Shown here in pieces: positions 15,715 through 31,947 of a stretch of DNA of 64,000 nucleotides. How positions within the stretch are numbered: the stretch's first letter is position 1; each line of letters opens with the position of its first letter. The notes below the pieces were generated by a model. That model did no database searches, was not told the origin of the DNA, and saw only the letters and a list, made by a program, of their open reading frames with translations. Source of the DNA: Rhodopseudomonas sp. P2A-2r (lineage in GTDB: Bacteria > Pseudomonadota > Alphaproteobacteria > Rhizobiales > Xanthobacteraceae); assembly GCF_026015985.1 (NCBI RefSeq), contig NZ_CP110389.1:3256001-3320000 (forward strand). Reading direction: 5' to 3'. Made by a program: the position numbers and the translations under genes.

Positions 15715-15891
15715 TTACATCCCCAACGGTCGCGGGCGGGTCAAAACCAGTCTTGCGCAAGTAAAGGCCATGGCTCCTGCAATGACGCCCCAGAACGCGC
15801 CGCCGGGATCGGGGCCGATCTTGTCCCCGATCAGGCCCCCAACAATCACGGAAAAAAGAATGCCGGTTAGCCAAATGAAAAAGTTGCGCAT
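15715..15891 (-). CDS. 58-residue two-helix membrane protein coupled to cI
   Basis: This short gene encodes two hydrophobic segments: FFIWLTGILFSVIVGGLIG (residues 4-22) and AFWGVIAGAMAFTCARLVL (32-50), ending in TRPRPLGM. Its ATG shares a base with the cI stop (TAATG), so it is translationally coupled to the repressor and should be expressed in the lysogen. The size and two helices resemble small holins or exclusion proteins. The lysogenic location favours an exclusion or membrane-modifying role; this is inference. Confidence 0.6.
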   Translation of the reverse strand: MRNFFIWLTGILFSVIVGGLIGDKIGPDPGGAFWGVIAGAMAFTCARLVLTRPRPLGM

Positions 15892-16535: not shown

Positions 16536-16547
16536 GCCGATAAGTCT

Positions 16548-16610
16548 ATAACAAGGGTTATCGGCAGTCTCCATAACAATAGTTCTTGACATGACGATAA
16601 CCTACGTTAT
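16548..16610. promoter_or_regulatory. Tripartite repressor operator between cI and cro
   Basis: Three palindromes are visible: ATAAC-AAGG-GTTAT at 16548-16561, ATAAC-AATA-GTTCT at 16573-16586 (one mismatch) and ATAAC-CTAC-GTTAT at 16597-16610. Their centres are 25 and 24 bases apart, close to lambda OR spacing. The cro-proximal site lies inside the rightward promoter. The cI-proximal one overlaps a TATAGA-type -10 on the minus strand that could be PRM. Confidence 0.75.
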
Positions 16611-16613
16611 TTT
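16586..16613 (+). promoter_or_regulatory. Rightward early promoter PR
   Basis: TTGACA at 16586-16591 and TATTTT at 16608-16613 are 16 bases apart. The expected transcription start is about 16619-16621, that is at the cro ATG (16620), so the cro message may be leaderless. Operator 16597-16610 lies between the two boxes. Confidence 0.7.
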
Positions 16614-16619
16614 CAGGTT

Positions 16620-16862
16620 ATGGAAAAAGCACCAATTCAACGGGCTATTGAGTTCGCCGGCTCCGAAGCGAAGCTAGGCGAGGGCATCGGATTTTCGCAA
16701 GTCGCGGTCAATAAAGCGAAGCATAAAGGACGAGCGAGCCCGGCGATGGCCCTTGCGATCCACCGTTTCACCGGCGGGCTGGTGCCCGCATCGGCGATCA
16801 GGCCAGATATGTGGGCTCGTCCAGAAGATGTCCCGACTGAGCGCGCGACGGTGGCGGCATGA
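16620..16862 (+). CDS. Cro/YdaS-like DNA-binding protein
   Basis: This encodes 80 residues. PIQRAIEFAGSEAKLGEGIG followed by FSQVAVNKAKHKGRASPAMA is a YdaS/Cro-type helix-turn-helix (Q-A-V-N recognition helix). The rest is MAIHRFTGGLVPASAIRPDMW-like, typical of the family that also includes phage Cro repressors. It is the first gene of the rightward transcript and divergent from cI. Confidence 0.75.
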   Translation: MEKAPIQRAIEFAGSEAKLGEGIGFSQVAVNKAKHKGRASPAMALAIHRFTGGLVPASAIRPDMWARPEDVPTERATVAA

Positions 16863-17035
16863 GATACGTTCGTCCCGATTTCGCTGGCTTCGTTCGTGCC
16901 AACCTCATTTCACAATCCGCCATCCCCATGGCGGTAAGTCCGGCCGCTGCACTACCCCCTTCGTCCTGGTGCAGCGGTTGGCAATCAATTCCAGTTTTGG
17001 CAACCGCCCAAGCAACCATCAGCCCGGGTCAATGA
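16859..17035 (+). CDS. Possible small early protein
   Basis: An open frame of 58 residues starts at an ATG overlapping the cro stop (ATGA) and ends at a TGA at 17033-17035. It begins MRYVRPDFAGFVRANLISQS and has no recognised motif. The overlap with cro supports translation, but composition is not decisive. Confidence 0.35.
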   Translation: MRYVRPDFAGFVRANLISQSAIPMAVSPAAALPPSSWCSGWQSIPVLATAQATISPGQ

Positions 17036-17301
17036 CATGGGGCGACCGCATAGCGGTGCCGGCTCCATCGGGAAGGGCGCACAGTAGTGCAAAGTGCTCT
17101 GCCGTTGCCAAATTCAATCTGAAGCGTCTCTGCCATCTATCGGGTCCGCCGGCCGAAGCCGCGCGCCTGGGCCTCAAATTTGGCAAGCTGACGCAGACGA
17201 TATTCGACATATTCGCGGCGCTCTTTTTCCTCCTGTTCGTGCTGGTGATGTTCTGCGCCGTCGTCGGCTCTGTCCTGGCTCTGCTTCTCTTCAAGTTTTG
17301 A
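17032..17301 (+). CDS. Possible small membrane protein
   Basis: This open frame encodes 89 residues with a strongly hydrophobic C-terminus (IFDIFAALFFLLFVLVMFCA). The ATG overlaps the previous stop. The opposite strand holds a hydrophilic 83-residue frame (17137-17388) rich in Glu, Lys and Gln, so one of the two is a shadow of the other. The rightward operon context favours this one slightly. Confidence 0.35.
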   Translation: MTWGDRIAVPAPSGRAHSSAKCSAVAKFNLKRLCHLSGPPAEAARLGLKFGKLTQTIFDIFAALFFLLFVLVMFCAVVGSVLALLLFKF

Positions 17302-17403
17302 TACCACGCGGGCGGTTGCAGCCGCCAGCGTTTGCCATGTGTCGTTATCGTTGTGTGTAGTTGCGTTCTTCATGCCCTCAATCAACATGAAGCGAGTTCG
17401 GAA

Positions 17404-17859
17404 ATGTCGGAAAGTTCAGACGGTAATTGTATAGCGTATCCGAAAGTGGGATGGCGGGCGGAAATCGCCGCAATCGCTGGCCCGCTAGTGGATGGCGACA
17501 CGAGGGAAAGCTGGCTGCACCGCGCAGCGCGGAAAGCTTTCGTGTCGCATCGCCACATCAAGGCGCTGTTTTACGGTGAAATGGCCGATCCGAAGTACAG
17601 CGTTGCCTACAAGGTTTTGAGTGCGGCGCAGAAAGCGCGGATAGACGCCGCCAAGCTCGATGCTGCGGCACTTTCCAAGAAGTTCGAATCCATTGCTCGG
17701 GGGATGCAAAAAAATGCGAGTCAAGAGTGCAGTGAGGACGTTGCTGCTTTGCTACATGCGGCTCGCGTCCTGGCCGGCGGCGTGCCGGATCTTCATCGCG
17801 AAGATGCTCCTACGCTGTTCAACACGCCTGTCTATCGTGGCCGTCTGGCTGGCGCCTGA
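17404..17859 (+). CDS. Hypothetical early phage protein, possible HTH
   Basis: This encodes 151 residues from the ATG at 17404. The middle reads WLHRAARKAFVSHRHIKALF followed by YGEMADPKYSVAYKVLSAAQ, which could form a helix-turn-helix. Similar proteins precede the replication genes of rhizobial phages. It may regulate early or lysogenic choice, but the sequence does not show it. Confidence 0.5.
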   Translation: MSESSDGNCIAYPKVGWRAEIAAIAGPLVDGDTRESWLHRAARKAFVSHRHIKALFYGEMADPKYSVAYKVLSAAQKARIDAAKLDAAALSKKFESIARGMQKNASQECSEDVAALLHAARVLAGGVPDLHREDAPTLFNTPVYRGRLAGA

Positions 17860-17877
17860 GATTGTCGAGGTTTCGCA

Positions 17878-18450
17878 ATGAGCGACACCATCGAGCATCG
17901 GCCGACCGAAAGAGAGTTGGCGCTTTCCGCTCATGAGCGGCGGAAAGACTTCCACAATAGGCTAGCGGCGACGGCGGCGCAGGTTGCTGCGGCAGAGCTG
18001 CGCAGGCAAGCAGCAATCGCCGCGGCCGTGCCGCGGCCTGTCGAGCCGGTGGCGCCGGCGATCGATGCCAGTGAATTTTACAAGGCTTGCTGGTTCATGA
18101 TCGAAGGCGTTTCGCCGAACGCAAGTCTGGCGATGAAGCAAATCAAGGAAGCGGTCGCCAAACACTACGGCTTGCCGATTGCCGCGATGCAGGTTGGTCG
18201 CCGCTTCCATGAATGGATGCGCCCCCGGCAGATCGCCATGTACCTCTGCAAAGAGCTGACGGATAACAGTCTCCCGATGATCGGCGCGGCATTCGGCGGG
18301 GCCGATCATACGACGGTGCTGCATGCCGGGCGCCGGATCGCTGGTTTCACTAATACCGCGGGTCGGTACGTTCCCGGCCTCATCGAGAAAGACTCCGCGT
18401 TCGCCGCGGTGGTTGCGAAGCTGCGCGCCGATCTTGAGGCTTCGCTGTGA
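17878..18450 (+). CDS. DnaA domain IV-like DNA-binding protein
   Basis: This encodes 190 residues. Residues about 115-154 contain RPRQIAMYLCKELTDNSLPM and IGAAFGGADHTTVLHAGRR, the DnaA signature with the DHTTVLHA recognition helix that contacts DnaA boxes. There is no AAA+ ATPase domain. The N-terminal 60 residues are a helical Ala/Arg-rich segment. Stand-alone domain IV proteins could bind host or phage origin boxes and influence initiation. It precedes the replication protein gene by four small genes. Confidence 0.75.
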   Translation: MSDTIEHRPTERELALSAHERRKDFHNRLAATAAQVAAAELRRQAAIAAAVPRPVEPVAPAIDASEFYKACWFMIEGVSPNASLAMKQIKEAVAKHYGLPIAAMQVGRRFHEWMRPRQIAMYLCKELTDNSLPMIGAAFGGADHTTVLHAGRRIAGFTNTAGRYVPGLIEKDSAFAAVVAKLRADLEASL

Positions 18451-18704
18451 AAGGGCCAGATGGCGTACCGCCAGAAGTCTGCGCGCTGTTCGAGCGCCTG
18501 GCGTTGGATCTGCTCAAGCGAGGCTTCGACCGCTATTCCGCAGACGCCATCCTGCATCAGATTCGATGGCAGATGCACATGATGCGCGGTGATCGCACCT
18601 TCAAGTGCAATGACCACTGGACCGCGCCACTGGCTCGCTGGTTCATGGCGAAGAATCCGAAGGCCGGGAAATTCTTTGAACTACGCGAAAGGGCCGCGGC
18701 ATGA
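18447..18704 (+). CDS. Hypothetical early phage protein
   Basis: This encodes 85 residues from a GTG overlapping the previous stop. The segment GFDRYSADAILHQIRWQMHM and FKCNDHWTAPLARWFMAKNP look conserved (aromatic- and Trp-rich). Function unknown. Confidence 0.6.
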   Translation: MKGPDGVPPEVCALFERLALDLLKRGFDRYSADAILHQIRWQMHMMRGDRTFKCNDHWTAPLARWFMAKNPKAGKFFELRERAAA

Positions 18705-19357
18705 TGCGAGTTTTGATAGGTTGCGAAACCTCCGGTGTCGTCCGTCGCGCCTTTGCCGCGCTGGGGCATGATGTCTGGTCGTGCGATCTGCTTCCGTCCG
18801 AAGATGGCAGCAACCGCCACATCACCGGCGACGTGCGGGACATTCTGAGCGACGGGTGGGACTTGCTCGCCGTGATGCATCCGCCTTGCACTCGGCTTTG
18901 CAATAGCGGCGTGCGCTGGCTGTCGGTGCCGCCGCCGGGTAGGTCGCTGGAAAGCATGTGGGCTGAACTGCACGAAGGCGCCGCGCTCTTCTCAGCGTGT
19001 TGGAATGCCCCCATCGACCGCGTTGCCGTCGAAAATCCAGTAATGCACCGGCACGCCAAGGTGCTGATTGAGAATTTTCAGCCGGCGGCGCAGACGGTGC
19101 AGCCGCATTGGTTCGGGGAGCCGGCTTTCAAGGCAACGGGGCTCTACCTCAAGGGCCTGCCGCCGCTCGTTGCGACGAACCGGCTTTCGCCGCCGGCGCC
19201 AGGAACTGAGGAGCACAAAGCTTGGTCGAAGGTGCACCGCGCATCGCCCGGCCCGAATCGCTGGAAAGAGCGCAGCCGAACCTATGACGGCGTTGCCGCC
19301 GCCATGGCTTCGCAGTGGGGCGCGCATGCGTTGTCCGAGGTGAGGGCCGTAGCATGA
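18701..19357 (+). CDS. Small C5-cytosine-methyltransferase-like protein
   Basis: This encodes 218 residues. RVLIGCETSGVVRRAFAALG with HDVWSCDL matches SAM-binding motif I and II, AVMHPPCTRLCNSG (residues 58-70) is the PC motif IV with the candidate catalytic Cys63, and VAVENPVMH (109-116) matches motif VI. The large target-recognition region and C-terminal motifs IX-X of true Dcm enzymes are missing. It may be a minimal DNA-modifying enzyme protecting phage DNA, or a non-catalytic relative. Confidence 0.6.
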   Translation: MMRVLIGCETSGVVRRAFAALGHDVWSCDLLPSEDGSNRHITGDVRDILSDGWDLLAVMHPPCTRLCNSGVRWLSVPPPGRSLESMWAELHEGAALFSACWNAPIDRVAVENPVMHRHAKVLIENFQPAAQTVQPHWFGEPAFKATGLYLKGLPPLVATNRLSPPAPGTEEHKAWSKVHRASPGPNRWKERSRTYDGVAAAMASQWGAHALSEVRAVA

Positions 19358-19563
19358 GCCGAATTTTCGGCGATCTCTCGGCGCCGCCAAAATTGAAGCT
19401 CGTTGAGCCCGTCGATCGGCGCGACTATTCCGGCCGCGACTTCACCATTGAATCGCTGTGGAAGCTCAAGCGCGACACGCTGTTTATTGCGGAGCGCATG
19501 GGCATACCAGAAAGCACGGTCGCCAACCGGCTTGCGCTGATCCGTGATGCGGGGCGGTCATGA
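19354..19563 (+). CDS. Small HTH-type phage protein
   Basis: This encodes 69 residues, starting with ATG overlapping the MTase-like stop. The C-terminal TLFIAERMGIPESTVANRLA is a typical helix-turn-helix (sigma/resolvase-like) that could bind DNA. No more specific assignment. Confidence 0.5.
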   Translation: MSRIFGDLSAPPKLKLVEPVDRRDYSGRDFTIESLWKLKRDTLFIAERMGIPESTVANRLALIRDAGRS

Positions 19564-19808
19564 AGGGCAAGCGCAAGGTCTCGCCGCATGTGACCGCCAT
19601 AGCTGACCGCTGCAAGGGCGGACAGAGGCTTTGCAAGTTCCTGCGCCAGACCGGCGCCGGCGACACCGAGGCAGTTTTCATTTTCGAACCCAGCGGGCGC
19701 CGGTGCGCGGCACGGTGGGCCAGGGCGGCGATTGCCGCCGGCGCGGTGCGGCCTGCTGGTGATGGCCTGCTGGGGCCGTCGTCGTCTCAGAGTTATGTGG
19801 TCGCATAG
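19560..19808 (+). CDS. Hypothetical phage protein
   Basis: This encodes 82 residues, coupled by ATGA overlap to the preceding gene and followed closely by the replication gene. It is basic (KGKRKVSPHVTAIADRCKGG) with a hydrophobic middle (TEAVFIFEPSGRR). No family recognised. Confidence 0.45.
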   Translation: MKGKRKVSPHVTAIADRCKGGQRLCKFLRQTGAGDTEAVFIFEPSGRRCAARWARAAIAAGAVRPAGDGLLGPSSSQSYVVA

Positions 19809-19813
19809 CCCGG

Positions 19814-20889
19814 ATGCAGCTCACCCCGAAAAACTGGAAGTCCTTCCAGCACTACAAAGATCGCTCGCCTATGTGGATCAAGCTCCACCGCGGGCTGCTG
19901 GACAATCCAGACTATTTCCGGCTGTCACCCGACGCCGGCAAGGCGCTGCCGCTCCTGTGGCTGCTCGCAAGCGAAAAGGACGGCATTCTGCCGGACGTGC
20001 CGGATGTAGCGTTCCGGCTGCGGATCTCGGAAGAGCTGGCCGGCACCATCCTGGCCGAAATGGTCACGCGCAAATTCTTCGTTGATGCTACGCATGCGGA
20101 GCAAGACGCGCCAGATGCTACGCCTGCGCAGCGGGTGGCAAAAGCCAACGGCTTCGGGTCTCGGCATATCCCCGATGAGGTCAAGCGCCTGGTGTGGGAG
20201 CGGGATGGCGGCTGCTGCGTCGTCTGCGAAGCCACCGAGAACGTCGAATATGACCACAAAATCCCCGTTTCTAAAGGGGGCCCGTCGACCTTTGAGAACG
20301 TCCAACTGCTCTGCCGGACCTGCAACCGCCGCAAGCGCGTGCATGTTGCTACGCAGGCTCCTAGCAGTCGTAGCCTAGAGAAGAACAGAGAAGAGAAAAG
20401 GGAGAGGCAGAGATTCGGGCGGTCGCTGCCGCGCCGGCCCGCGCTCCTGATCGCTTCGAAGAGTTCTGGAAGGCATATCCAAGGCGTGACGGCGCCAACC
20501 CGCGGGCGCCTGCTGAGAAGAAGTTCAAGGCCTTGGTAAAGAGCGGCATTGATCCGCAAGTCATGATCGCCGGCGCGGCCGCGCTCGCCCTAGCGGAATC
20601 TGGCAAGGGCAACGTCGGTTCGAAATTCATTCCGCAGGCCATGACATGGCTGAATCAGCAGCGATGGTCGGATCATGCCGAAGTCGCTGGCCTGCTGACA
20701 CCGACGACGCCGGAAATGCAGATAGAGGCCGCAGTGTCGATGTTCGCGAAGCTCGGGCGCTGGTCGCGATTTGCTGGGCCTGCGCCGGGTGAGCCAGGTT
20801 GCCGCGCTGGTGCTGATCTGCTCGCAAAGTTCGGGATGCAGCCAGACGGACGCAAGCTCGAGATTATCACGCCTGATCTGGTGTGCTGA
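19814..20889 (+). CDS. Phage replication protein with internal HNH domain, frameshifted in this sequence
   Basis: The N-terminal about 95 residues (WIKLHRGLLDNPDYFRLSPD, then LPLLWLLASEKDG) resemble the winged-helix domain of O/DnaD-like initiators. Residues 115-175 are an HNH module (RLVWERDGGCCVVCEATENV and YDHKIPVSKGGP). Around 20394-20416 the frame shifts; the correct frame continues with DRFEEFWKAYPRRDG, KFIPQAMTWLNQQRWSDHAE and ends at 20889. The total is 3n+2 bases. The C-terminal FWKAYPRR and WLNQQRW motifs are typical of phage replication initiators. The HNH insert is unusual. Confidence 0.65.
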
Positions 20890-20912
20890 TCGGTGGATAG
20901 CGGTAGCGACGC

Positions 20913-20927
20913 TTAATCATTCGTTGA
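20913..20927 (+). promoter_or_regulatory. CtrA-box-like motif upstream of the late operon
   Basis: TTAA-N7-TTGA differs by one base from the CtrA consensus TTAA-N7-TTAA. It lies in the gap before the first late gene, about 52 bases upstream of its GTG, and its right half overlaps a TTGAGA that could be a -35 element. A CtrA-type regulator is encoded 2.4 kb downstream in the same operon. One near-match may be chance. Confidence 0.35.
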
Positions 20928-20978
20928 GAACTAAACAAACCTGACTCATTGATCGTACTCACAGAGAGAGGAAAGCTT

Positions 20979-21500
20979 GTGACCCTGAAAGTTTACAAAT
21001 CACAACTCGCCGGCGTCGACTTCGCCGCTGCTGTTGAGGGCCACCGTCAGGCGCTGCTTGCCCATCGCTTCACAGGCGACGCGGCGCCGACCGCTCATGA
21101 TCTGATCGCATCAGCTGTTCGGCGCGTCCCGTGTGAGGGTGGGCCTGACGACTTCGTTTCCGATTTCGAGATTGTTGACGACACGCCGGTGGTGGTGCCG
21201 CCGACACCGCAGCAGGTTCGCGATGACTTGATCGCCCGTCTTCGCTCGGCAGAGAACGTCGCCGCGCTGGCTGTCCTCGGGAACGGTGCCCTGCGCCTTC
21301 TGTCCCTGGATGCCCGCGAGGCCGCCATGAAGCCGCTTGAGCAGCGCACGGCCGCCGATACCGCCGCTCTGGACCGCATGCAGTCCGTCACCGATAGGCG
21401 AACTGCCATCGATCGCCACGCCGCCACCATCGAAGCTGCAATCGAACTGCTGCCGTTCGACCAGCTCACCACCTTCGAATTCGAGCCGTTCCCCTCGTAA
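20979..21500 (+). CDS. Hypothetical phage protein, first gene of the late operon
   Basis: This encodes 173 residues from a GTG with a good ribosome-binding sequence (GAGAGGAAAG) eight bases upstream; an upstream ATG at 20949 is possible. The protein has an N-terminal part with AAVEGHRQALLAHRFTGDAA and a helical C-terminus (DRMQSVTDRRTAIDRHAATI). No family recognised. Confidence 0.55.
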   Translation: MTLKVYKSQLAGVDFAAAVEGHRQALLAHRFTGDAAPTAHDLIASAVRRVPCEGGPDDFVSDFEIVDDTPVVVPPTPQQVRDDLIARLRSAENVAALAVLGNGALRLLSLDAREAAMKPLEQRTAADTAALDRMQSVTDRRTAIDRHAATIEAAIELLPFDQLTTFEFEPFPS

Positions 21501-21536
21501 GCGTCGACACTCACTCAAACCGTTAAGGATCTGACT

Positions 21537-21800
21537 ATGGACAACATGAAAGCCGCTGGCTGCGGCCACGGCTCGGCCGCTTATGAAAAGGCTGAGCAGC
21601 ATCGCACGGCAGGCGCGTCGATTGGTGGGTGCGCGGCTTCGACCTCGTACACGATCGGCGACGCGATCGACCACAAGATTGCCGAATGCCTGCGGACCGT
21701 GTCTGAGCTGCGCGACCTGAAGGGCTCGCTCTCGCTCGGCTTCCTCAACAGCGCCGCCGCTCGCGTCGGGCATCTGCGCTCGCTCGGGCTGTTCTCCTAA
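21537..21800 (+). CDS. Hypothetical phage protein
   Basis: This encodes 87 residues. It starts with a Cys/Gly/Ala-rich segment (MKAAGCGHGSAAYEKAEQ) and ends in helices (DHKIAECLRTVSELRDLKGS). It lies 4 bases before the terminase small-subunit-like gene. Function unknown. Confidence 0.5.
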   Translation: MDNMKAAGCGHGSAAYEKAEQHRTAGASIGGCAASTSYTIGDAIDHKIAECLRTVSELRDLKGSLSLGFLNSAAARVGHLRSLGLFS

Positions 21801-21803
21801 GCC

Positions 21804-22286
21804 ATGACCAATCCGCAGGGGCGCCCAACTGATTTCACGGAAGAGCTGGCAGCAGAGATTTGCCGCCGGCTCGCCGAGGGCGCAACCCTGCGGGCGGTCT
21901 GCAAAGCCGACGACATGCCGTCCGAAAGCGTCGTTCGGAAATGGGCGGTTGAGGATCGCGGCGGGTTTCGTGCGCATTACACGGGCGCGCGCGAGATTGG
22001 TTATCTGTCGATGGCCGATGAACTCGTTGAAATTGCAGACGATAGCAGCGGCGACACCATTACGGACAAAGAAACCGGCGCCGATCGGCTGGATGGTGAA
22101 TGGGTCGCTCGATCCCGCATCAAGATCGATACGCGCAAATGGCTGCTCTCCAAGGCGCTGCCGAAAATCTACGGCGAAAAGCTTGCAATCGGCGGCGCCG
22201 AGGATCTGCCGCCAGTCAAAACCCTCTCGCGCATCGAGCGCGTGATTGTCGATCACCCCAAACCGAAAGCAGATGCAAATGGTTAA
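21804..22286 (+). CDS. Terminase small subunit-like protein
   Basis: This encodes 160 residues. GRPTDFTEELAAEICRRLAE then GATLRAVCKADDMPSESVVR is the N-terminal helix-turn-helix typical of small terminase proteins of this type, followed by a helical SMADELVEIADDS and RIKIDTRKWLLSKALPKIYG stretch. It would recognise the packaging site and hand DNA to the large subunit, which is encoded 2.1 kb downstream after a block of small genes. Confidence 0.8.
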   Translation: MTNPQGRPTDFTEELAAEICRRLAEGATLRAVCKADDMPSESVVRKWAVEDRGGFRAHYTGAREIGYLSMADELVEIADDSSGDTITDKETGADRLDGEWVARSRIKIDTRKWLLSKALPKIYGEKLAIGGAEDLPPVKTLSRIERVIVDHPKPKADANG

Positions 22287-22287
22287 G

Positions 22288-22581
22288 ATGGATATTGGCG
22301 AAGCGGTGCAGGCGATGCGCGACGGGAAAGCTGTTCGACGCGCCGGCTGGAACGGCAAGGGCATGTTCGTGGTGATGATGCCGCCGTTGGCATTGCCGCC
22401 GTTCAATACGCAGGGCACCGACCGCAAGGTTAACGACCGCACCGCGAAGTGGATCGGCGAAGATGCGCCGCTCGACTGCCAACCGTACATCGCCATGTAT
22501 ACGGCCGCGAAGCAGTGGCAACCGGGCTGGCTGTGCTCGCAAGCCGACCTTCTCGCCACCGATTGGGAGTTGGTCGCTTGA
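22288..22581 (+). CDS. DUF2829/Tad2-like protein (putative Thoeris anti-defence)
   Basis: This encodes 97 residues from the ATG at 22288 (22279 is an alternative start). The signature is clear: MDIGEAVQAMRDGKAVRRAG, WNGKGMFVVMMPP, QPYIAMYTAAKQW, and the C-terminal SQADLLATDWELV. Tad2 proteins of this family form tetramers that sequester the cyclic ADP-ribose signal of Thoeris defence. Residue-level binding was not checked. It lies inside the packaging operon, as small anti-defence genes often do. The next gene starts at a TTG overlapping its stop. Confidence 0.75.
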   Translation: MDIGEAVQAMRDGKAVRRAGWNGKGMFVVMMPPLALPPFNTQGTDRKVNDRTAKWIGEDAPLDCQPYIAMYTAAKQWQPGWLCSQADLLATDWELVA

Positions 22582-22928
22582 AAATCATCCCGACTACTGG
22601 CCGCGTCGTTCTCTATTTCCCGTCCGAAGAGGATCGGATGGAGGGAATGGACGTGCTGACCGAGGCGCCGTGCACCGCCTTGGTTGCCTTCGTGCATTCC
22701 GACACGTCCATCAACCTGGTCGTGTTCGATCATTGCGGGCAGGAATTCCAGCGCCACAAGGTTCCGATCAACATTGAGCGCTTCACCGGTCTGCCGCGCG
22801 CCGAATGGATGCCGTACCAGGTCGGGAAGGCCGCGAAGCATGAAGCTGTGCCTCTTGCACCGATCGGGCGGACCATTGGCATCGATCATTCGCCGCCGGC
22901 GTCGGTTGCTGCTGGGCGGGCAAGTTGA
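22578..22928 (+). CDS. Hypothetical phage protein
   Basis: This encodes 116 residues from a TTG overlapping the Tad2-like stop (TTGA). It begins KIIPTTGRVVLYFPSEEDRM and contains TALVAFVHSDTSINLVVFDH, a small beta-rich domain. It follows the anti-defence gene directly and might belong with it, but no family is recognised. Confidence 0.55.
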   Translation: MKIIPTTGRVVLYFPSEEDRMEGMDVLTEAPCTALVAFVHSDTSINLVVFDHCGQEFQRHKVPINIERFTGLPRAEWMPYQVGKAAKHEAVPLAPIGRTIGIDHSPPASVAAGRAS

Positions 22929-22935
22929 TGTTCGG

Positions 22936-23109
22936 GTGGGGCACCCGGGGCTCGCGAACAAGGTTGCGCGTGAGCCCGACAAGCTCGATGCGCTCGCCGA
23001 TAAGCTGCGTCGCGATTGTCCGTATCTGAATGAGCCGTTTTCGACGCGCTGGCTGATCCTGATCATCCTTTATGTGCTGGTCGCCACCAACCTGCTGGTG
23101 GTGAAGTGA
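22936..23109 (+). CDS. Small single-span membrane protein
   Basis: This encodes 57 residues from a GTG. A charged N-terminus (REPDKLDALADKLRRDCPYL) is followed by one transmembrane helix (WLILIILYVLVATNLLVV). The stop overlaps the following ATG. Other frames here give no better product. Function unknown. Confidence 0.45.
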   Translation: MGHPGLANKVAREPDKLDALADKLRRDCPYLNEPFSTRWLILIILYVLVATNLLVVK

Positions 23110-23336
23110 TGGCAATGAGCCCCGTTCATTACCGCGTCCGCAGCATGTCGCAGGCCGCTGAACAGCTCCGCGATATCCAGCTCTCCGCAGAGCTGGAGTT
23201 CTACAAGGCTCTCTCGCTTGATTACGGGCAGATCATTGAAGGCATTGCGGAGTGTCTGACGGACGGAACGCCAATCTCTATCGCCATCGGTCGCAAGCCG
23301 GCGGTTCGTGCAGTGCGTAAACGCGGCAAAGCTTAA
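23109..23336 (+). CDS. Hypothetical phage protein
   Basis: This encodes 75 residues, starting at the ATG that shares a base with the previous stop (TGATG). It is helical with a basic tail (RKPAVRAVRKRGKA). It lies 23 bases before the CtrA-like gene. Confidence 0.5.
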   Translation: MAMSPVHYRVRSMSQAAEQLRDIQLSAELEFYKALSLDYGQIIEGIAECLTDGTPISIAIGRKPAVRAVRKRGKA

Positions 23337-23359
23337 CCTTCTCATAGGGATTTACGGAC

Positions 23360-24167
23360 ATGCGGATTTTGCTGGTTGAAGACGACGCGGTGTGTGCACA
23401 GGCCGTTGAACTGATGCTGAAGTCGGAAAGCTTCAACGTCTACACCACCGACCTGGGCGAAGAGGCGATCGACCTCGGGAAGCTGTACGATTACGACGCG
23501 ATCCTGCTCGATCTCACGTTGCCCGATATGTCCGGCTACGACGTGATCTCGCACCCTTCGGCGCGGCAAGGTGATGACGCCTATCCTGGTGGTGTGTGGC
23601 CTCGCAGGCATTGACGACAAGGTCAAGGCGCTCGGCGTCGGCGCCGACGATTACCTGACCAAGCCGTTTCACAAGGACGAACTCGTTGCCCGCATCCACG
23701 CCCTGGTGCGCCGTTCGAAGGGGTTGGCGCATTCGGTGGTCTCCACTGGCAACCTCTCGGTGAACCTGAGCACAAAGACGGCCGCGGTCGATGGCGTCGA
23801 CGTGCATCTGACCGGCAAGGAATATCAGGTTCTCGAGCTGCTTTCGCTCCGGAAGGGCCTGACGCTCACCAAGGAAATGTTCCTCAACCACCTGTATGGC
23901 GGGATGGATGAGCCGGAACTGAAGATCATTGACGTCTTCATTTGCAGGCTGCGCAAGAAGCTGAAGGCAGTCAACGGCCACGTCATGGAAACGATCTGGG
24001 GCCGCGGCTACGTGCTGCGCGATCCCTTCACCGGCGCCGGCGTCTCGATGTCCTCGGAAGTCGCTGATATGGCCGACAATCCGCCTGTGCACGTCTCCAA
24101 GATGTCGTTTGCCGAGTTCGACGCGATGCGCGATCGGCGCAGCAAGCCGGCCAGGGTCGGCGCGTGA
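23360..24167 (+). CDS. ctrA: CtrA-like response regulator encoded by the phage, frameshifted in this sequence
   Basis: The receiver domain reads [20 protein letters not shown] with the phospho-acceptor Asp51 in [17 protein letters not shown]. At 23549-23552 one extra base breaks the frame; the other frame resumes [34 protein letters not shown] and the OmpR-type DNA-binding domain with [38 protein letters not shown] and [12 protein letters not shown], which are nearly identical to chromosomal CtrA. Length is 3n+1. After repair it has 268 residues, about 35 more than usual, with a phage-specific C-terminal tail. It would be expected to bind CtrA boxes. Whether phosphorelay partners act on it is unknown. 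Confidence 0.85.
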
Positions 24168-24442
24168 GCTTGTATTGCGAGCCCGCCACAGTTCGCGTCG
24201 TGGCATGGCGCTACCAGCGAAGGGAGGGTTGGGGCGATTTCTGGCGCAGATCCGCCGGCCCGGTGAAGCCGTGCTTTGATGTTTTTGATGATTGGAAGAT
24301 CAAGCCCGTCGTCCGCGTCAAGATGGGTAGGCGCGTAGTGGGCGGCCCGCTGACGCAAGGGCTAATCGAGGCCGAGGTGCGCCGCCTCGAGGCGCTACGC
24401 GGCCGTCCGCTTGTGCAGACAGGGCGGTCCCGCTTCGCATGA
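24164..24442 (+). CDS. Hypothetical phage protein
   Basis: This encodes 92 residues from a GTG overlapping the CtrA-like stop. It is basic and Trp/Arg-rich ([20 protein letters not shown]). It is coupled by overlap to the large terminase gene. Function unknown. Confidence 0.5.
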
Positions 24443-25776
24443 CAACCCTACGCATTGAAACCCCGCGCGTGTTCCTGCCGCTGCTTGAAGAGGCGGATTG
24501 GAAAGGCGTGTGGGGAGGGCGCGGCTCCGGAAAAACGCACTTCGGTGCTGATATGACAGTTGAGGATGCGTTGCGCTTCCCCGGCGACACGGGCGAGGGG
24601 CTGCGCCAGGTCTGCATCCGCGAAGTGCAAAAGGATCTGTCTCAGAGTTCGAAGCTGGTCATTGAAGACAAAATCCACAGGTACGGCCTCGGTGAGGCTG
24701 ATGGCTTCAAGATTTGGCGCGACCGCATCGAGACGCCGAAAGACGGAATTATCATCTTCAAGGGGATGAACGACTACACGGCCGAATCAGCGAAGTCTCT
24801 GGAAGGATTCAAGCGCGCGCAGATCGATGAAGCCCAAACCATAACGCACCGGTCTTTGTCGCTGCTGGGTCCGACTATCCATCGCTGGAAAGGGTCGTCT
24901 ATCCTCGCGATTTGGAACCCGCGGCGCAAGACGGACGCGATTGATGACTTTTTCCGCACCAGGAAGCCAAAGGGCGCGATCTGCATTCGGGCCAATTGGA
25001 GCGACAACCCATTTTGGAACGAAAGCGCCGAAAAACAGCGGCTGCTTGAACTTGAGCTCTATCCCGATCGCTACCCGCACACTTATGAGGGCGAGTACGC
25101 AAAGGCGTTCGAGGGCGCCTATTTCGCCCGCGAGCTGGCGCAAGCCCGCATGGAGGGCCGCATCGCCGGCGGTCGCGTCGGCACCGATCCGCTGTTGCCT
25201 ATTCGGGCAATCTTCGACATTGGCGGCGCCGGCGCCAAAGCCGACGCTATGGCGATCTGGATTACGCAGTGGGTCGGGCGCGAGGTCCGAATTCTCGACT
25301 ACATCGAAGGCCAGAGCCAGCCGCTCTCCTATTACGCCAACGAACTGCGGTCCCGCGGGTGGGGCAAAGCGGTAATAATTCTTCCACACGATGGCTTGAA
25401 CGCAAGTGCCATCACGGGAAAGCAATATGTAGATCATTGGCGGGATGCCGGGTTCGAAGTCGCTGAACCGGTCGCCAACCAAGGCGCAGGCGCTGCGATG
25501 CAGCGCATTGAGGCGGTTCGGCGCATCTTCCCGAACCTCGTATTCAACGACACGCCAGCCGTTAACGGCGGTCTCGACGCCATCGGCTTCTATCATGAGC
25601 GGAAAGACGAGGCCCGCAACATCGGACTCGGCCCCGAACACGATTGGTCAAGCCACGCTGCGGACGCTCTCGGCCTGCTGGCGATCATTTACGAAGCGCC
25701 GACGCTACAGAAGCCGCGCGAACGCTACTCGGGCCAGCGCGGTAGATCCGGCTCTGGCTCCTGGGAATCTGCCTGA
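24439..25776 (+). CDS. Phage terminase large subunit
   Basis: This encodes 445 residues. The ATPase has a Walker A GGRGSGKT at residues 26-33 and a Walker B-like AQIDEAQ at about 127-133. The C-terminal nuclease domain shows acidic residues in AIFDIGGAGAKADAMAIWI and HDWSSHAADALGLL. It is the packaging motor and end-cutting enzyme. The ATG overlaps the previous stop. Confidence 0.92.
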   Translation: MTTLRIETPRVFLPLLEEADWKGVWGGRGSGKTHFGADMTVEDALRFPGDTGEGLRQVCIREVQKDLSQSSKLVIEDKIHRYGLGEADGFKIWRDRIETPKDGIIIFKGMNDYTAESAKSLEGFKRAQIDEAQTITHRSLSLLGPTIHRWKGSSILAIWNPRRKTDAIDDFFRTRKPKGAICIRANWSDNPFWNESAEKQRLLELELYPDRYPHTYEGEYAKAFEGAYFARELAQARMEGRIAGGRVGTDPLLPIRAIFDIGGAGAKADAMAIWITQWVGREVRILDYIEGQSQPLSYYANELRSRGWGKAVIILPHDGLNASAITGKQYVDHWRDAGFEVAEPVANQGAGAAMQRIEAVRRIFPNLVFNDTPAVNGGLDAIGFYHERKDEARNIGLGPEHDWSSHAADALGLLAIIYEAPTLQKPRERYSGQRGRSGSGSWESA

Positions 25777-26033
25777 TGCCTACAACCCTTCAACAGATCA
25801 TGGATGAAGTCATGTCCACAGCCGACGCCCTGAAGTCCGCTCTCTCCATCCTCTCCGACCAGATCGACGCAGAGGTGGGCACGCGCGCCGCAGACGCGAG
25901 CGCTGCCGCCGCTGCTGGTGCGGCCAATGAGCAGGCGCTGACCGAAGCCCTCACGATGGTGCAAACGCTCTCGGCCAAGCTACCGATGCCGCCGGCGGTC
26001 GATGCTGCCGCGCTCGCCCCGCCGACCATCTGA
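25776..26033 (+). CDS. Hypothetical phage protein
   Basis: This encodes 85 residues, Ala-rich and helical (MDEVMSTADALKSALSILSD), starting at an ATG overlapping the terminase stop (TGATG). It sits between terminase and portal. Function unknown. Confidence 0.55.
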   Translation: MPTTLQQIMDEVMSTADALKSALSILSDQIDAEVGTRAADASAAAAAGAANEQALTEALTMVQTLSAKLPMPPAVDAAALAPPTI

Positions 26034-26073
26034 GCCATTCGCCGCCGCTGTCCTCAACCCCTGAAAGCAACCA

Positions 26074-28281
26074 ATGACCGATACGACGCAGGGCCAGGAC
26101 CGCGACCATGACGGCGACGGCGGCCGTGACGAAAAAGAGGCGCCGCCGAGTTCTGAGGCGACGTTCAAGAAGCTGAAGGGCTGGTTCCTCTCCGATTACG
26201 AGAAGCAGGGCCCGTGGCGGACGCAGGCGAAGGAAGATTACGGTTTCGAGGCTGGCGATCAGCTCAACGAGGCTGACAAGGCCATTCTCAGCGACATGAA
26301 CCGGCCGGTAGTGATCTTCAACCGCATCGGGCCGGTGGTCGATAGCGTCGCCGGGCAGGAAGTCGGCAACCGCCAGGAACTGGAATTCATCCCGCGCCGG
26401 CAGGGTGCCGTTCAAAAAAACGAAATGCTGACCTCGGCGGCTCGCTGGTTTCTCGATGAGTGCGACGCTGCAGACGAGGAATCGGACTCCTTCCGCGACA
26501 TGCTGACGTGCGGCATGGGCTGGACCGAAACCGGGCTAAAGTACGAGGATACGCCGGAAGGCGCGCCGCAGGTTGACCGCACCGACCCGCTGGAAATGGT
26601 GTGGGACGCCGGCGCGCGGAAGCGCAACCTGGTTGACAAGCGGCGCGTCTTCCATATTCGCCGTGATATCCCGATCGAAGAGGCGCAGGCTCTATGCCCG
26701 GGCGACGATTTCGAGGATTCTGACTACAACGCGACATGGGTTGACGACAAAAAGGCCACGGAAGACGGCAAGCCGCACGAAAACGACAACAGGTTCTACA
26801 ACAAGGAAAGCACCGGCAACGGTGAGGAAGACAGCGGCGAAAAGCTGGTGACGATGGTTCGCGCTCAATGGTTTGAGCGCGTGCCGGTCCACATGATCGC
26901 CGATCCGGATGACCCAACCGGGCAGGCCATCAAGACGCTGTCGGCCGAAGACTTCAAAGAGCTGATGGCGAAATACAAGCTCGCCGGCGCGCCTATGCCA
27001 AAGTCGGTCAAGGGGACGCGGAAGGTCTACAAACAGGCCTATCTTGGCGCGATCCTGCTCGAAATCGGCGATGCTCCCTGCAAAGACCACTTCTCGTTCA
27101 ACTGCATGACGGGAAAGCGGGACCGGAACAAGAATTCGTGGTTCGGACTGGTGCGGGCCATGAAGGACCCGGCGCGGTGGTCGAACAAGTGGCTCTCGCA
27201 GACCATGCACATCATGAACACGACGTCCAAGGGCGGCATCGCAGCCGAACGCGGCGAGTTCTTCGACAATGATGCAGAGGGCGAGGCCTCTTGGGCGAAA
27301 CAGGACACGGTGACGTACCTGAAGGCCGGCGCGCTCTCGGGGGCGAACGGCGCCAAGTTTATCCAGAAGCCGGTTTCGCAGTTTCCGGAGGCATCGTTCA
27401 ACCTGATGCAGTTCGCCGTGACGGCGCACCGTGACGTCTCAGGGCTCAACCTCGAGACGTTGGGCATGCAGCAGGGCGCCGGGCAGGCTGCCAGCCTCGA
27501 TCTGCAGCGCAAGCAATCGGCGATGACCATCCTGCAGCCGCTTTTCGATAGCCTCCGACGCTACCGAAAAGAGCAGGGCCGCTTGATGCTCTATCTGATC
27601 GAAAACTATCTGTCGGACGGCCGACTGATCAAGATCGTTGGACCGGAGGGCGCGCAGTATGTGCCGCTGGTCAAGCAGCCGGGCAACGATGGCAATTACG
27701 ACGTGATCGCCGACGAAAGCCCAACCTCGGCCAATCAGAAGGAAGCCACCTGGGCATTCCTGCAACAGATCCTGCCGGTTATCGGCAAGATGCTGCCGCC
27801 GGCCACATGGCTGGCGCTCCTGAAATACTCGCCGCTGCCGACGTCCGCGCAGAAGGACATCACGGACAGCATCGCGGCAGAGCAGCAGCAGGCCAAGCCA
27901 GATCCGGAGGCGGCAAAGGCCGCGTCCGATCTTCAGGCATCGCAGGCCAAGAGCGCGGCCGATATCGCTAACGCCAAGGCGGTCAGCGAAGCAAAAATCC
28001 AGATTATGCGCGATGAGGCTGCGGCAAAGCGCGAAATCGCCGTGGCTGATGCGCAGCACGCCGCCATGACGGGCCTGATGACGGCGCCGCCGATCGTTGG
28101 GCCGGATGGGCAGGCGATGCCAAACCACGGCGCCGACGCCGCGCAGCTCGTCATGTCGATCGTGCAGCAAATGCGCAACGACATGGCCGGCCTGGCGCAG
28201 GCCCTCAACACGCCGAAACGCCTGATCCGCGACCCGAACACGGGCGAGTTGATCGGAATTGCACCGATGGGAGCGAACTAA
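26074..28281 (+). CDS. P22-like portal protein
   Basis: This encodes 735 residues. QLNEADKAILSDMNRPVVIF and NRIGPVVDSVAGQEVGNRQE are typical of P22-type portals, and the core shows SWFGLVRAMKDPARWSNKWL. The C-terminal 130 residues form an Ala/Gln-rich helical barrel segment (AKSAADIANAKAVSEAKIQI) like the barrel of P22 gp1. It forms the dodecameric DNA channel at the capsid vertex. Confidence 0.88.
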   Translation: MTDTTQGQDRDHDGDGGRDEKEAPPSSEATFKKLKGWFLSDYEKQGPWRTQAKEDYGFEAGDQLNEADKAILSDMNRPVVIFNRIGPVVDSVAGQEVGNRQELEFIPRRQGAVQKNEMLTSAARWFLDECDAADEESDSFRDMLTCGMGWTETGLKYEDTPEGAPQVDRTDPLEMVWDAGARKRNLVDKRRVFHIRRDIPIEEAQALCPGDDFEDSDYNATWVDDKKATEDGKPHENDNRFYNKESTGNGEEDSGEKLVTMVRAQWFERVPVHMIADPDDPTGQAIKTLSAEDFKELMAKYKLAGAPMPKSVKGTRKVYKQAYLGAILLEIGDAPCKDHFSFNCMTGKRDRNKNSWFGLVRAMKDPARWSNKWLSQTMHIMNTTSKGGIAAERGEFFDNDAEGEASWAKQDTVTYLKAGALSGANGAKFIQKPVSQFPEASFNLMQFAVTAHRDVSGLNLETLGMQQGAGQAASLDLQRKQSAMTILQPLFDSLRRYRKEQGRLMLYLIENYLSDGRLIKIVGPEGAQYVPLVKQPGNDGNYDVIADESPTSANQKEATWAFLQQILPVIGKMLPPATWLALLKYSPLPTSAQKDITDSIAAEQQQAKPDPEAAKAASDLQASQAKSAADIANAKAVSEAKIQIMRDEAAAKREIAVADAQHAAMTGLMTAPPIVGPDGQAMPNHGADAAQLVMSIVQQMRNDMAGLAQALNTPKRLIRDPNTGELIGIAPMGAN

Positions 28282-28701
28282 ATGGCCGCATACAACAAAT
28301 TCGACTGCTTCACGCTCGATCTGGCGACAAAGCTTCACAACCTCAACGCCGACACGCTGAAAATCATGCTGTCGAACGTCCTGCCGGTACGGACGAACAC
28401 GGTGAAGAGCAATCTGACAGAGATTGCAGCGGGCAACGGCTATTCTGCCGGCGGATCAATCGCGCCGTTCGTCTCGGGTATCGACACATCGGGCTCTTAC
28501 AAGCTGATCCTTTCGCCGGTGGTATTCACGGCAGTGGGCGGATCGATAGGGCCGTTCCAATACGCGCCGATCTACAACGCCACGGCCGCGGGTCTCAATC
28601 TAATTGCCTGGTGGGATTACGGAACGCCCATCACCATCACCAACGGCAACAGCTTCACTGTCGGTCTCGATCAGACCGCCGGTACGCTGACGCTCGTTTA
28701 A
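28282..28701 (+). CDS. Hypothetical structural phage protein
   Basis: This encodes 139 residues, beginning directly after the portal stop. It is beta-rich with FDCFTLDLATKLHNLNADTL near the start and TITNGNSFTVGLDQTAGTLT at the end. Comparable proteins of unknown function sit next to portal or capsid genes in many rhizobial phages; a head-decoration role is possible. Confidence 0.6.
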   Translation: MAAYNKFDCFTLDLATKLHNLNADTLKIMLSNVLPVRTNTVKSNLTEIAAGNGYSAGGSIAPFVSGIDTSGSYKLILSPVVFTAVGGSIGPFQYAPIYNATAAGLNLIAWWDYGTPITITNGNSFTVGLDQTAGTLTLV

Positions 28702-28710
28702 GGGGGTCTC

Positions 28711-28965
28711 ATGACCGATTACCTGACGCTGATCCGGCAGCAGTTCGCCCAGCTCTGCGCGCAGCGGGACGCAATCCTGGTGCAGTCCATGCCGATCCGC
28801 GAGGCGCGCGACGCCTTGGCGGTCGCCGCCGCTGCGGATCTGGCCGCCAAGACCGATCCCATGAATGCGCAGATCATCGCGCTTGAAGCACCGTTGGCCG
28901 ATCTCATGAGCCAGATCGCACAGATTTCCAACGCTCTGAGCGGGCAGACGGGCAGCGGCGCGTAA
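28711..28965 (+). CDS. Small coiled-coil phage protein
   Basis: This encodes 84 residues, largely one helix (LTLIRQQFAQLCAQRDAILV then IIALEAPLADLMSQIAQISN). It is followed without gap by a fibre-like gene, whose product it might accompany. Function unknown. Confidence 0.5.
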   Translation: MTDYLTLIRQQFAQLCAQRDAILVQSMPIREARDALAVAAAADLAAKTDPMNAQIIALEAPLADLMSQIAQISNALSGQTGSGA

Positions 28966-30060
28966 ATGGCAAGCCTCGTCCTCGGCGTCAAATTTATCCC
29001 GGCTTCGGCCGGCGCTGGCAGCTTCGTATTCGCCGCGGCTGTGACGGGGTATTTGGCGCCGACTGCTGCGATGGACGGAAAAACCTACCGGTATCGCGCA
29101 GAAAATCCGCTTTCGCCGTCAGAGTGGGAATGGGGCGCGACGGTCTATTCTAATTCGACGGGCACGTTTACCCGCGTCGTCTCGTTTTCTTCGACTGGCG
29201 GCACTGTAGCATTCACAGGTATTCCGCAGGTTGGGCTCCTGTTGTTCCCCGCCGACATCCTGCAATTCGATGATGCGATGTCGCTGACGACGGCGCAGCA
29301 AGGCATGGGTCGCGCGAATATCGGTGTCCCGGGCGCGAACCTGCTGATTAATCCGGATTTCCGGGTCAACCAGCGCGTCTATGTTTCCGCGGCCGCGCTC
29401 GCGGTTGGCATCTACGGGCACGATCGCTGGAAGGCGGGCGCAGCCGGCGGCGATTATTCGTTTGCCCAGCTCGCCAGCTCGACAACGATCACGATCGCGT
29501 CGGGCAAGACCCTTATTCAGGTGGTCGAGGACAAGAATGTAGAGGGCGGTACTTATGTTCTGTCGTGGACCGGAACTGCGCAGGCGCGCGCCGGTGTCAA
29601 TTCGGCAACGCCCTCGGGCAGCTACGCCGCAAGCCCACTGATCATTGCCGGTCAGACCGCCGGAACTGTCATGTCGGTGGAGTTCAACGCCGGTACGCTC
29701 GGCAAAGCAAAGCTTGAAGTCGGGTTGGTTCCGACGCCGTTCGTGATGTCCAGCATCGACATCGAGGCGGCGAAGTGCCTTCGATACTTCGAAGTTGTAA
29801 TCGCGCCTAGCGGCGCAGGTAACGCAATTTTTTCTGGATCACTGACAGGAACCAACGCACTCGCGAGGTGGGAGTTCAAAGTTCAGAAAAGGGTTAACCC
29901 AACATTTGCGCAAATGAATAGTTCGACTTGGCAGAACGCTACGCCGGCCAACGTTTACATCGACTTGAACGGAATTTGGTTTCAGACGACGGTTGGCAGC
30001 TTTTTCTATCTTAACGGGACTATTGGCCTACCTATTTGTTCGGCTAGTTCGGAGCTTTAA
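28966..30060 (+). CDS. Fibre- or spike-like phage protein
   Basis: This encodes 364 residues. The N-terminal 115 residues look like a particle-attachment domain (TYRYRAENPLSPSEWEWGAT). From residue about 120 it reads ANLLINPDFRVNQRVYVSA and HDRWKAGAAGGDYSF, a layout shared with many phage tail-fibre or base proteins, followed by a jelly-roll-like carbohydrate-binding segment. Its place between portal and scaffold genes, away from the tail fibre at 43618, is unusual. It may bind a receptor. Confidence 0.6.
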   Translation: MASLVLGVKFIPASAGAGSFVFAAAVTGYLAPTAAMDGKTYRYRAENPLSPSEWEWGATVYSNSTGTFTRVVSFSSTGGTVAFTGIPQVGLLLFPADILQFDDAMSLTTAQQGMGRANIGVPGANLLINPDFRVNQRVYVSAAALAVGIYGHDRWKAGAAGGDYSFAQLASSTTITIASGKTLIQVVEDKNVEGGTYVLSWTGTAQARAGVNSATPSGSYAASPLIIAGQTAGTVMSVEFNAGTLGKAKLEVGLVPTPFVMSSIDIEAAKCLRYFEVVIAPSGAGNAIFSGSLTGTNALARWEFKVQKRVNPTFAQMNSSTWQNATPANVYIDLNGIWFQTTVGSFFYLNGTIGLPICSASSEL

Positions 30061-30143
30061 TTATGGTGTTGCATCGCGCGATCCGTGGTGTCCGCGATCC
30101 AGAAATTCTGATCAATCCAAGTGTTTGCAGGGCCGCATAACTC

Positions 30144-30917
30144 ATGTTCTTTGACGCGCTAGGCAAATTCGCGCTTGGGCAGATCAGCGCGCCGGGCTCA
30201 ACGAATTCAACCCTCGTTGCTGCGCCTGGTGCCTATGCGGTCACCGGCTTTGCGGCCACGTTCGGATTGCAGGAGCCGGCCGCTGCTGGCAGCTATGCCG
30301 CCACCGGCGTCGCGGCGTCGCTCAACGACAAGCTCGCCGCGGCTGCGGGAGCCTATGCGATCACCGGCGTCTCGGCGTCGTTCAAGGTTGGCGAGGTGGC
30401 TGTTGCCGGATCCTACGCGCTAACCGGCGTCGCCTCGGGTTTCAAGGTCGCATTCCCGGCAGAAGTCGGCAGTTACGCCGTGACCGGACAAGCAGCGGTG
30501 CAGGGCGCCACGCTGGCGCCGGCAACGGGTTCATACGTCACCGCCGGCGTGGCCTCGGTCTGGCCGATCTTCATGCGCGCCGACGCTGGGAGCTACGCAA
30601 TTGCATCGCCAGTGGCGCAGCTCTACCGCAGTGGCGCAGACTTCGATTTGGTCTATGGCGGCATCGGCCACTATCTCGTCGCGGCCGAAGAGGCGCGCCA
30701 GCTCGCCCGTATCACGCGGAAGACGCCGGCGCCGATCGATCGCACCACAAAGCCAGTGTTCAAGGCTGTAGGAAGCCCGCCAGCGCCGCCGGCAGCGCCG
30801 GTCATCGACATGCAGGCGGTGCAGAACGAACGCGCTGCGGCCCAGCAGGCGGCGACACAGGCGGCAACCATCAAACGGCGTCGGCAGGAAGAGGAATTCT
30901 TACTGCTCGCCTCCTAA
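30144..30917 (+). CDS. Repeat-containing phage protein (seven GSYA-type 20-residue repeats)
   Basis: This encodes 257 residues. Residues about 27-160 consist of seven units of about 20 residues on the pattern AxxGxYAxTGxAASFxxxxx (for example AAAGAYAITGVSASFKVGEV). This predicts a regular beta structure. The C-terminal about 100 residues are a linker with PAPPAAPVIDMQ and a basic helix (ATIKRRRQEEEFLLLA). The gene lies between the fibre-like gene and the scaffold. No function is known. Confidence 0.6.
   Translation: MFFDALGKFALGQISAPGSTNSTLVAAPGAYAVTGFAATFGLQEPAAAGSYAATGVAASLNDKLAAAAGAYAITGVSASFKVGEVAVAGSYALTGVASGFKVAFPAEVGSYAVTGQAAVQGATLAPATGSYVTAGVASVWPIFMRADAGSYAIASPVAQLYRSGADFDLVYGGIGHYLVAAEEARQLARITRKTPAPIDRTTKPVFKAVGSPPAPPAAPVIDMQAVQNERAAAQQAATQAATIKRRRQEEEFLLLAS
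30225..30632 (+). repeat. Tandem 60-bp coding repeats
   Basis: Seven diverged units with a period of 60 bases encode the GSYA/TG repeats of the overlapping protein. The amino acids are better conserved than the bases, so the array is old and kept by selection. Confidence 0.6.
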
Positions 30918-30989
30918 TTCCGGGTCATCCGGATATCGCGCGCGGCGTTCCGCGTATCTGTCGCTGACAGCTTCAGCAGAGGGCACCAC

Positions 30990-31947
30990 ATGGACAACAA
31001 CAGCAGAATCCACTTCAAACGACATCGGCCCGTCATTCTCGGCGGAAGAGGAGGCGTTCTTCAGCAGCGGCGGCGAATCCGTCATCCCCGGCGATTCCGG
31101 CACGCTGGCGCCGGCCGATGATGCTGGCGTCGAAGGCGATGGCGGAACCGAACCGGCCGCGCCCAAGGCCGGCGAAAAGAAGATGGTTGAGCTGGCCGCT
31201 CTCCACGAAGAGCGGAAGTTGCGCCAGGAGCGTGATGCGGAGTTGCGCGCGCGGGATCTCGAGATTGCCGAATTCAAGGGCAAGTTCGCCATCATCGAGC
31301 GGCTGAATGCGCCTGCAGCTGCCGCCACCGCGCCCGTGGTGCCTCCGACCGTTGACGATGACATTTTCGGCGCCGTCAAGCACCTCGGCGAAACCGTCGC
31401 GCAGACGCAAAAGCGCTTGGATGACGCCGACGCCGCGACCAAGGCGGAAACGGAGCGCACTGCGTTCGTCAACGACTACAAGGCTGATGCGGCGGCATTC
31501 GAGGCCGGCGATCCGGTCAAGGGCGTCGCGGCCGTGCCGGACTATCGCAAGGCCTATGACTTCCTGCTGAACTCCCGCGCTGCAGATCTCAAGGCGATCG
31601 GTTACGACACGCCGGAAAAGCTGCACAACGCCCTGACTGCCGACGAATTCGCCATCGCGCAGATGGCGAAAGACCAGGGCAGGAGCCCGGCGGCGATGCT
31701 CTACGCTCTGGCGCAGGCCCGCGGCTACAAGGCTGCCGCAGCACCGGCGGCCGATGGCGGCACCGCGGCCGAACGCCTCGCCAAGATCGAAGCGGGGCAG
31801 GCGGCGAACAAGAGCCTCAGCGATCTTGGCGGCGAAGCGCCTGGCGGCGCGATGACAGCGCAGCGATTGATTGACATGCCGATGGCGGAGTTCGAGGCGT
31901 GGACCGCGAAAAATCCGGCCATGGCTAAGCGCCTGATGGGCGCCTGA
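30990..31947 (+). CDS. Phage scaffolding-type protein, frameshifted in this sequence
   Basis: A GAGGG ribosome-binding sequence precedes the ATG at 30990. The frame shifts a few codons on: one surplus A near 30996-31001. After it the frame reads TTAESTSNDIGPSFSAEEEA and onward without a stop to 31947 (total 3n+1). The protein is acidic and then a long coiled coil (LAALHEERKLRQERDAELRA), with a C-terminal helical part ending NPAMAKRLMGA. Position between portal and capsid, composition and coiled coil fit a scaffold. Without the repair, only a start at 31183 is available and the acidic N-terminus would be lost. Confidence 0.65.

Follow-up and report, generated by a model that had tools for sequence, protein, structure and literature searches.

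A prophage CtrA homologue placed by tree, tail and locus in a lineage of phage-encoded CtrA proteins

The window analysed here, a 64,000-nt stretch of the Rhodopseudomonas sp. P2A-2r genome, carries a prophage bounded by a 50-bp direct repeat, one copy of which (8201–8250) lies in the 3′ end of tRNA-Pro(ggg) and the other at 47735–47784. Its packaging region (Table 1) reads in the order terminase small subunit, Tad2-like gene, small ORFs, CtrA homologue, one small ORF, terminase large subunit and portal; a phage lysozyme is encoded as well. A preliminary description of the locus had placed a CtrA-type response regulator with Asp51 between the terminase genes, and our profile searches agree: both domains and D51 were found, an Sf6_terminase and a Terminase_3 gene flank them, and the portal gene and the att repeats put the homologue among prophage packaging genes. 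The gene that adjoins the terminase small subunit (22246–22581) is similar to Tad2 of the Thoeris anti-defence family (E 5.5e-24).

Table 1. Features of the prophage and of loci compared with it (positions without a prefix are those of the window)
Feature	Position	Strand	Remarks
Prophage	8201..47784	.	39.6 kb; bounded by 50-bp direct repeat (att)
Phage repressor	15891..16592	-	HTH_3 + Peptidase_S24
Terminase small subunit	21804..22286	+	Sf6_terminase, E 5.1e-34
CtrA homologue, front piece	23360..23614	+	receiver with E7, D8, D9, D51
CtrA homologue, rear piece, other frame	23571..24167	+	rest of receiver (C79, K101), Trans_reg_C, tail
Phage-type C-terminal tail	24036..24164	+	S-x-S...E...PP-x(1-2)-V; E 2.5e-19 to profile including tail
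Small ORF between CtrA and terminase large subunit	24164-24442
Terminase large subunit	24439..25776	+	Terminase_3, E 2.3e-16; 60.6% identical to that of L011
P22-like portal protein	26074..28281	+	profile match
Host's own ctrA	G000:C1:2248447-2249145
Receiver-less OmpR-type proteins in the CtrA slot	L126:3620-4240; L127:5737-6366		L146: same protein as L127

The CtrA homologue has the receiver followed by the OmpR-type DNA-binding domain that CtrA proteins have, split over two frames. In the Pfam profile search the front piece (23360–23611) matches positions 1–63 of the 111 of Response_reg with 48 bits; the rear piece (23574–24164) matches positions 71–110 with 28.5 bits, just below the cut-off of 30.2, and Trans_reg_C from position 3 to 77 of 77 with 65.6 bits. 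The phospho-acceptor D51, the acidic pocket (E7, D8, D9) and K101 are all present, and position 79 is Cys where the copies listed have Ser or Thr. The interruption noticed earlier is confirmed: the two pieces do not share a frame, and the frame changes somewhere in about 23545–23575. For a programmed frameshift, which we considered, we recognized neither a stop nor a classical slippery signal where the frame changes. The interruption in this assembly may be real or an assembly error; in the control for the latter, which left 11 and 14 usable genes out of 120 and 94 queried, no frame change was seen in the 11 usable conserved genes from 220 kb elsewhere in the genome, a small sample. The ORF of the rear piece has an internal GTG start at 23571, and the interrupted copy is probably inactive or gives at most a DNA-binding fragment from this start. 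The interrupted gene is probably silent as CtrA in this lysogen.

The best match of the window CtrA in its own genome is ctrA (78%), the next reaching 36%, and the two pieces are 78–83% identical to host ctrA overall: 51/64 residues in the front part of the receiver, 39/47 in the rear part and 73/94 (78%) in the DNA-binding domain. The domain had been described as almost fully conserved, a generous wording for such an identity. Differences from host ctrA at codon positions 1, 2 and 3 amount to 0.20, 0.11 and 0.61 for the front piece and to 0.14, 0.13 and 0.42 for the rear piece. Compared with the metagenomic virus L011, the values are 0.17, 0.12 and 0.42 for the front piece, 0.26, 0.18 and 0.49 for the rear piece and 0.32, 0.34 and 0.68 for the tail. 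The excess at third positions in both pieces suggests that both were under purifying selection before the interruption. Recent duplication of host ctrA is ruled out by the third-position differences from it and by the tree described below. A functional phage role had been called unlikely in the event that the gene was a recent decayed copy of host ctrA confined to this phage; it proved to be no recent copy, and relatives were found in other phages.

In total, 21 virus or prophage loci with CtrA relatives were collected: 19 from a scan of IMG/VR, one (L054) from a second scan and one (L091) from a MAG contig, with L283 encoding a protein identical to that of L091. Terminase_3 was found in 8/20 viral records and Terminase_6N in 1/11; phrog_2, searched in 11 records, gave three matches, of which only the record of L020 was new. 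The viral nature of the remaining records rests on IMG/VR and on the neighbouring genes. Six other phages or prophages have uninterrupted copies with the tail, 63–70% identical to the rear piece. In an annotated phage collection 191 records match the rear piece, and only MT839622.1 does so at >60% identity, with an unannotated gene that is broken off at the record end.

A search of related phages for CtrA at the same position was rewarded in one case: L011 has an uninterrupted tailed CtrA gene just 5′ of a terminase gene 61% identical to that of the window. Seven loci (L012, L013, L017, L022, L026, L029 and L091) have instead an adjoining phage DNA polymerase of one family, represented in L012 by phrog_1252; four of these copies (L012, L013, L022 and L091) are tailed, so that a place beside polymerase and integrase is not general in the tailed set, the window and L011 copies being beside a terminase. 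Between CtrA and the polymerase there is often a small gene, without a Pfam match in the two scanned, which by eye we take to be VRR-NUC-like, and a Pfam integrase lies beyond in three of the four polymerase-slot loci scanned (one of the three below cut-off). The CtrA gene of L014 is downstream of a family A polymerase. Something CtrA-like was present in 10 of 88 polymerase loci, namely seven CtrAs and, in L126, L127 and L146, three OmpR-type proteins that have no receiver and whose N-terminal part is different (those of L127 and L146 are identical). Proteins with a similar DNA-binding domain are encoded in 20 Rhodobacter phage records.

The proposal that the phage copy ties late expression to cell-cycle stage is weakened by these locations: only L011 shares the terminase place, seven relatives stand beside a DNA polymerase, and among the matches listed 0/80 terminase contigs (a set that does not include L011) carry CtrA. 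On the last count we also reject the idea that phages with this terminase lineage carry CtrA as a rule. In Bradyrhizobium phage ppBeUSDA76-2, whose terminase is 58% identical, no CtrA was seen among 32 features over 17 kb. Extra CtrA genes with D51 are also found on small Methylobacterium plasmids (37–67 kb) and a Mesorhizobium plasmid (H71–H79, H84; L291, L292); the listed features that were examined include no structural gene of a phage. One member of the class (G795) has two ctrA-like genes with D51 on separate contigs.

The window protein does not end soon after the last strand as CtrA commonly does. The preliminary description had called its extension, put at 35 residues, a phage novelty; the tail is about 43–46 residues long, and the novelty holds in that it was not seen in host CtrAs. 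Seven copies, including that of the window, have the motif S-x-S...E...PP...V in common: in six aligned tails S, E, P, P, V and P are invariant, and L091 has the same motif with variation around it. The motif is absent from the C-termini of the 30 + 10 host loci of the class that were compared, where C-termini vary from 8 to about 50 residues; in all 45 loci of the family the C-terminus, counted from the VLR motif, measures 14 residues. A pattern search of named genomes for the tail returned 132 stretches that fit and none that was confirmed.

A similarity comparison gave host CtrAs higher scores than phage copies. The window copy falls inside the CtrA tree, which was built without other OmpR-type regulators. 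Columns filled in under 30% of the rows were dropped, so the tail did not enter the tree; the seven tailed copies make one branch (89/84, not starred). The larger set around it is starred (96/90) and also takes in three further phage copies and seven CtrAs from the host family. We refer to this branch, which has both the motif and the common position in the tree, as the tailed phage CtrA clade, and the window copy has both. In the first tree, with the four long rows L054, L025, L023 and L024 present, L013 was outside the tailed set; in the second these four were dropped and two plasmid rows added, and the viral fragments L018 and L026–L029 were left out of both. The remaining phage copies stand elsewhere in the tree, so that capture occurred more than once. 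Taken together, tree, tail and the L011 locus show that the window gene belongs to a phage CtrA lineage derived from a ctrA close to that of the host family.

Residues 51 and 8 are Asp in all 87 host-genome CtrA loci, the best matches to CtrA in 79 genomes (42 loci, 30 + 12, from the class and 45 from the family, with 7 family genomes entering twice). In the viral set residue 51 could be read in 18 of 21 copies: Asp in nine, Glu in six (L012, L013, L015, L022, L023 and L054), Gly in two and Ala in one; these copies are related, and 18 is not a number of independent events. Asp8 is kept in 8/8 readable viral copies with Asp51 and lost in eight of the nine without it (Pro 6, Ser 1, Ala 1, Asp 1). 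Three of the Glu51 copies, L015, L023 and L054, combine Glu51 with Pro8 and have no PP tail; where placed they are outside the tailed set, and recurrence of the loss of the phospho-site is therefore likely. The preliminary description mentions neither the common tail motif nor the absence of the phospho-site from half of the viral copies that could be read.

The DNA-binding domain is closer than the receiver to that of this host in 26/29 host genomes, in 8/16 phage copies and in 1/6 tailed copies, the receiver being at least as close in the other 5/6. A receiver in decay next to a DNA-binding domain that stays fixed would be too simple a description, and the binding specificity of the tailed phage CtrAs may have shifted. 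A receiver so host-like would also suit a decoy of the phosphorelay, in which the phage receiver docks on host ChpT without accepting phosphate, host CtrA is starved and the cell enters replication; the closest solved sequence to L012 is the CtrA receiver chain of entry 4qpj, reportedly a complex with ChpT. We consider such a decoy improbable: it would have no need of the DNA-binding domain, yet every copy that extends so far has the domain; receiver-less versions occupy the same slot, and the window copy keeps its phospho-site.

The preliminary description had suggested that the phage copy could take over CtrA boxes. This finds no support in the phage: TTAA-N7-TTAA with up to one mismatch occurs twice in the window (2.08 expected) and once in the prophage (1.67 expected), and neither here nor in 12 further loci that encode CtrA were such boxes enriched. 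A cluster of CtrA sites in the phage is ruled out by these counts. TTAA-N7-TTGA sites precede the genes of L014 and L022 by ∼210 bases; they were seen after the fact and are not counted as evidence.

A captured CtrA could be restricted to phage promoters and its own gene, acting through half-sites such as GTTAAC and serving no end in the cell cycle of the host. The drift of the DNA-binding domain in tailed copies is consistent with this, as is the occurrence of a TTGAC[AT] promoter-like site in 7/8 polymerase-slot genes and of GTTAAC at −18 to −29 in 4/8; the promoter pattern, which was picked after inspection of the sequences, arises in 2–10% of shuffles. We rate such a phage-internal regulator as unlikely, since two-half CtrA sites are not enriched in phages, L011 has no TTGAC[AT]/GTTAAC element upstream of its CtrA gene, and no promoter-like site was found at 20800–24500 of the window, where CtrA probably depends on its operon. 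Some 20 bases near 20917–20938, upstream of the packaging genes, are nearly identical to L011 at about 375–400; judged by this similarity, a regulatory site is possible.

The gene could also be a passenger, a captured host gene of no use to the phage and now decaying. It is interrupted here, and of 18 genomes of the genus, including this one, 17 match CtrA at E 1e-60, and this is the sole genome with a second such match. The tail profile was found in 2/391 genomes of the family, 2/397 of the order (one marginal, E 9.6e-4) and 1/289 of the class, this genome included each time, so that such phages are rare in sequenced hosts. We hold a passenger to be quite improbable given the six uninterrupted tailed copies in other phages and prophages, the third-position excess and the common tail.

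CtrA sets the timing of replication and division in many alphaproteobacterial cells, and the CtrA of Caulobacter has its ClpXP degron at the C-terminus. The explanation that we prefer, tentatively and at somewhat less than an even chance, is a phage CtrA lineage freed stepwise from the phosphorelay and the proteolysis of the host into a stable, always-on form. Its members retain the receiver fold together with the OmpR-type DNA-binding domain and would be expected to bind CtrA-type sites still. The new tail would cover the C-terminus and allow escape from ClpXP degradation. Some members have also lost Asp51, most often in favour of a putatively phosphomimetic Glu51, along with Asp8, its partner in metal binding, and the Glu51 copies would be constitutively active. 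Such a protein, stable and always on, would set the replication and division programme of the host during phage multiplication. That OmpR-type proteins lacking a receiver occupy the same slot in phages speaks for this lineage reading. The window copy, with D8, D9 and D51 kept, would represent an early form.

The more specific proposal, that phages have recreated a dominant laboratory allele (Glu51, loss of Asp8, tail) in order to command the host, with the window gene as an early, phosphorylatable member, we regard as possible and rather doubtful. Several observations stand against the stepwise explanation: CtrA boxes are not enriched, the DNA-binding domain has drifted, the window copy, which is interrupted, still has its phospho-site, the tailed branch carries no star, with L013 outside it in the first tree, and the tail is modelled at low confidence. 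In the AlphaFold model of L012 (mean pLDDT 80.7, pTM 0.52) the receiver is confident and the DNA-binding domain mostly so, and the tail is poor (blocks of 46–67). If the proteins act as predicted, they would be dominant alleles, arisen in nature, of a master regulator of the cell cycle and useful as tools.

Phages that respond to host CtrA are already known (PMC9437464, PMC10589892), and so is a receiver-less phage 'CtrA' in RDJL Phi 2. Among the open-licence papers listed as matches, none describes a full-length phage-encoded CtrA with a lost phospho-site and a common tail. In lytic deferment phages (PMC9437464) the phage promoters are targets of host CtrA via clustered binding sites; the paper also mentions analogues of GcrA and CcrM in phages. 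Phage biology is tied to CtrA there as here, but those phages use host CtrA and site clusters, and the window prophage has no cluster. Phage Jorvik needs host CtrA (PMC10589892). The phiCbK-like phages carry a GcrA homologue (PMC3556154), likewise a phage-carried homologue of a cell-cycle master regulator, but of another protein family, and GcrA dominates at those stages of the cycle from which CtrA is absent. Roseobacter phage RDJL Phi 2 gp32 (KT266805.1, 'transcriptional regulator CtrA') has a CtrA-type DNA-binding domain (53% identity over 78 residues), but is about 150 residues long and has no receiver.

Host CtrA has the same domain composition as the window gene, and D51 is kept in the latter; unlike host CtrA, the window gene is phage-borne and interrupted, with a ∼45-residue tail and Cys79, and its relatives often have no phospho-site. 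A close parallel to the relatives is CtrA D51E-delta3-omega, reportedly described by Domian in 1997 as a dominant laboratory allele of Caulobacter. Six viral copies have Glu51 as this allele does, and three of them (L012, L013 and L022) also have a tail-covered C-terminus. The viral copies differ from it in being natural and known from their sequences and in the replacement of Asp8 in all six, and the window copy differs in having Asp51.
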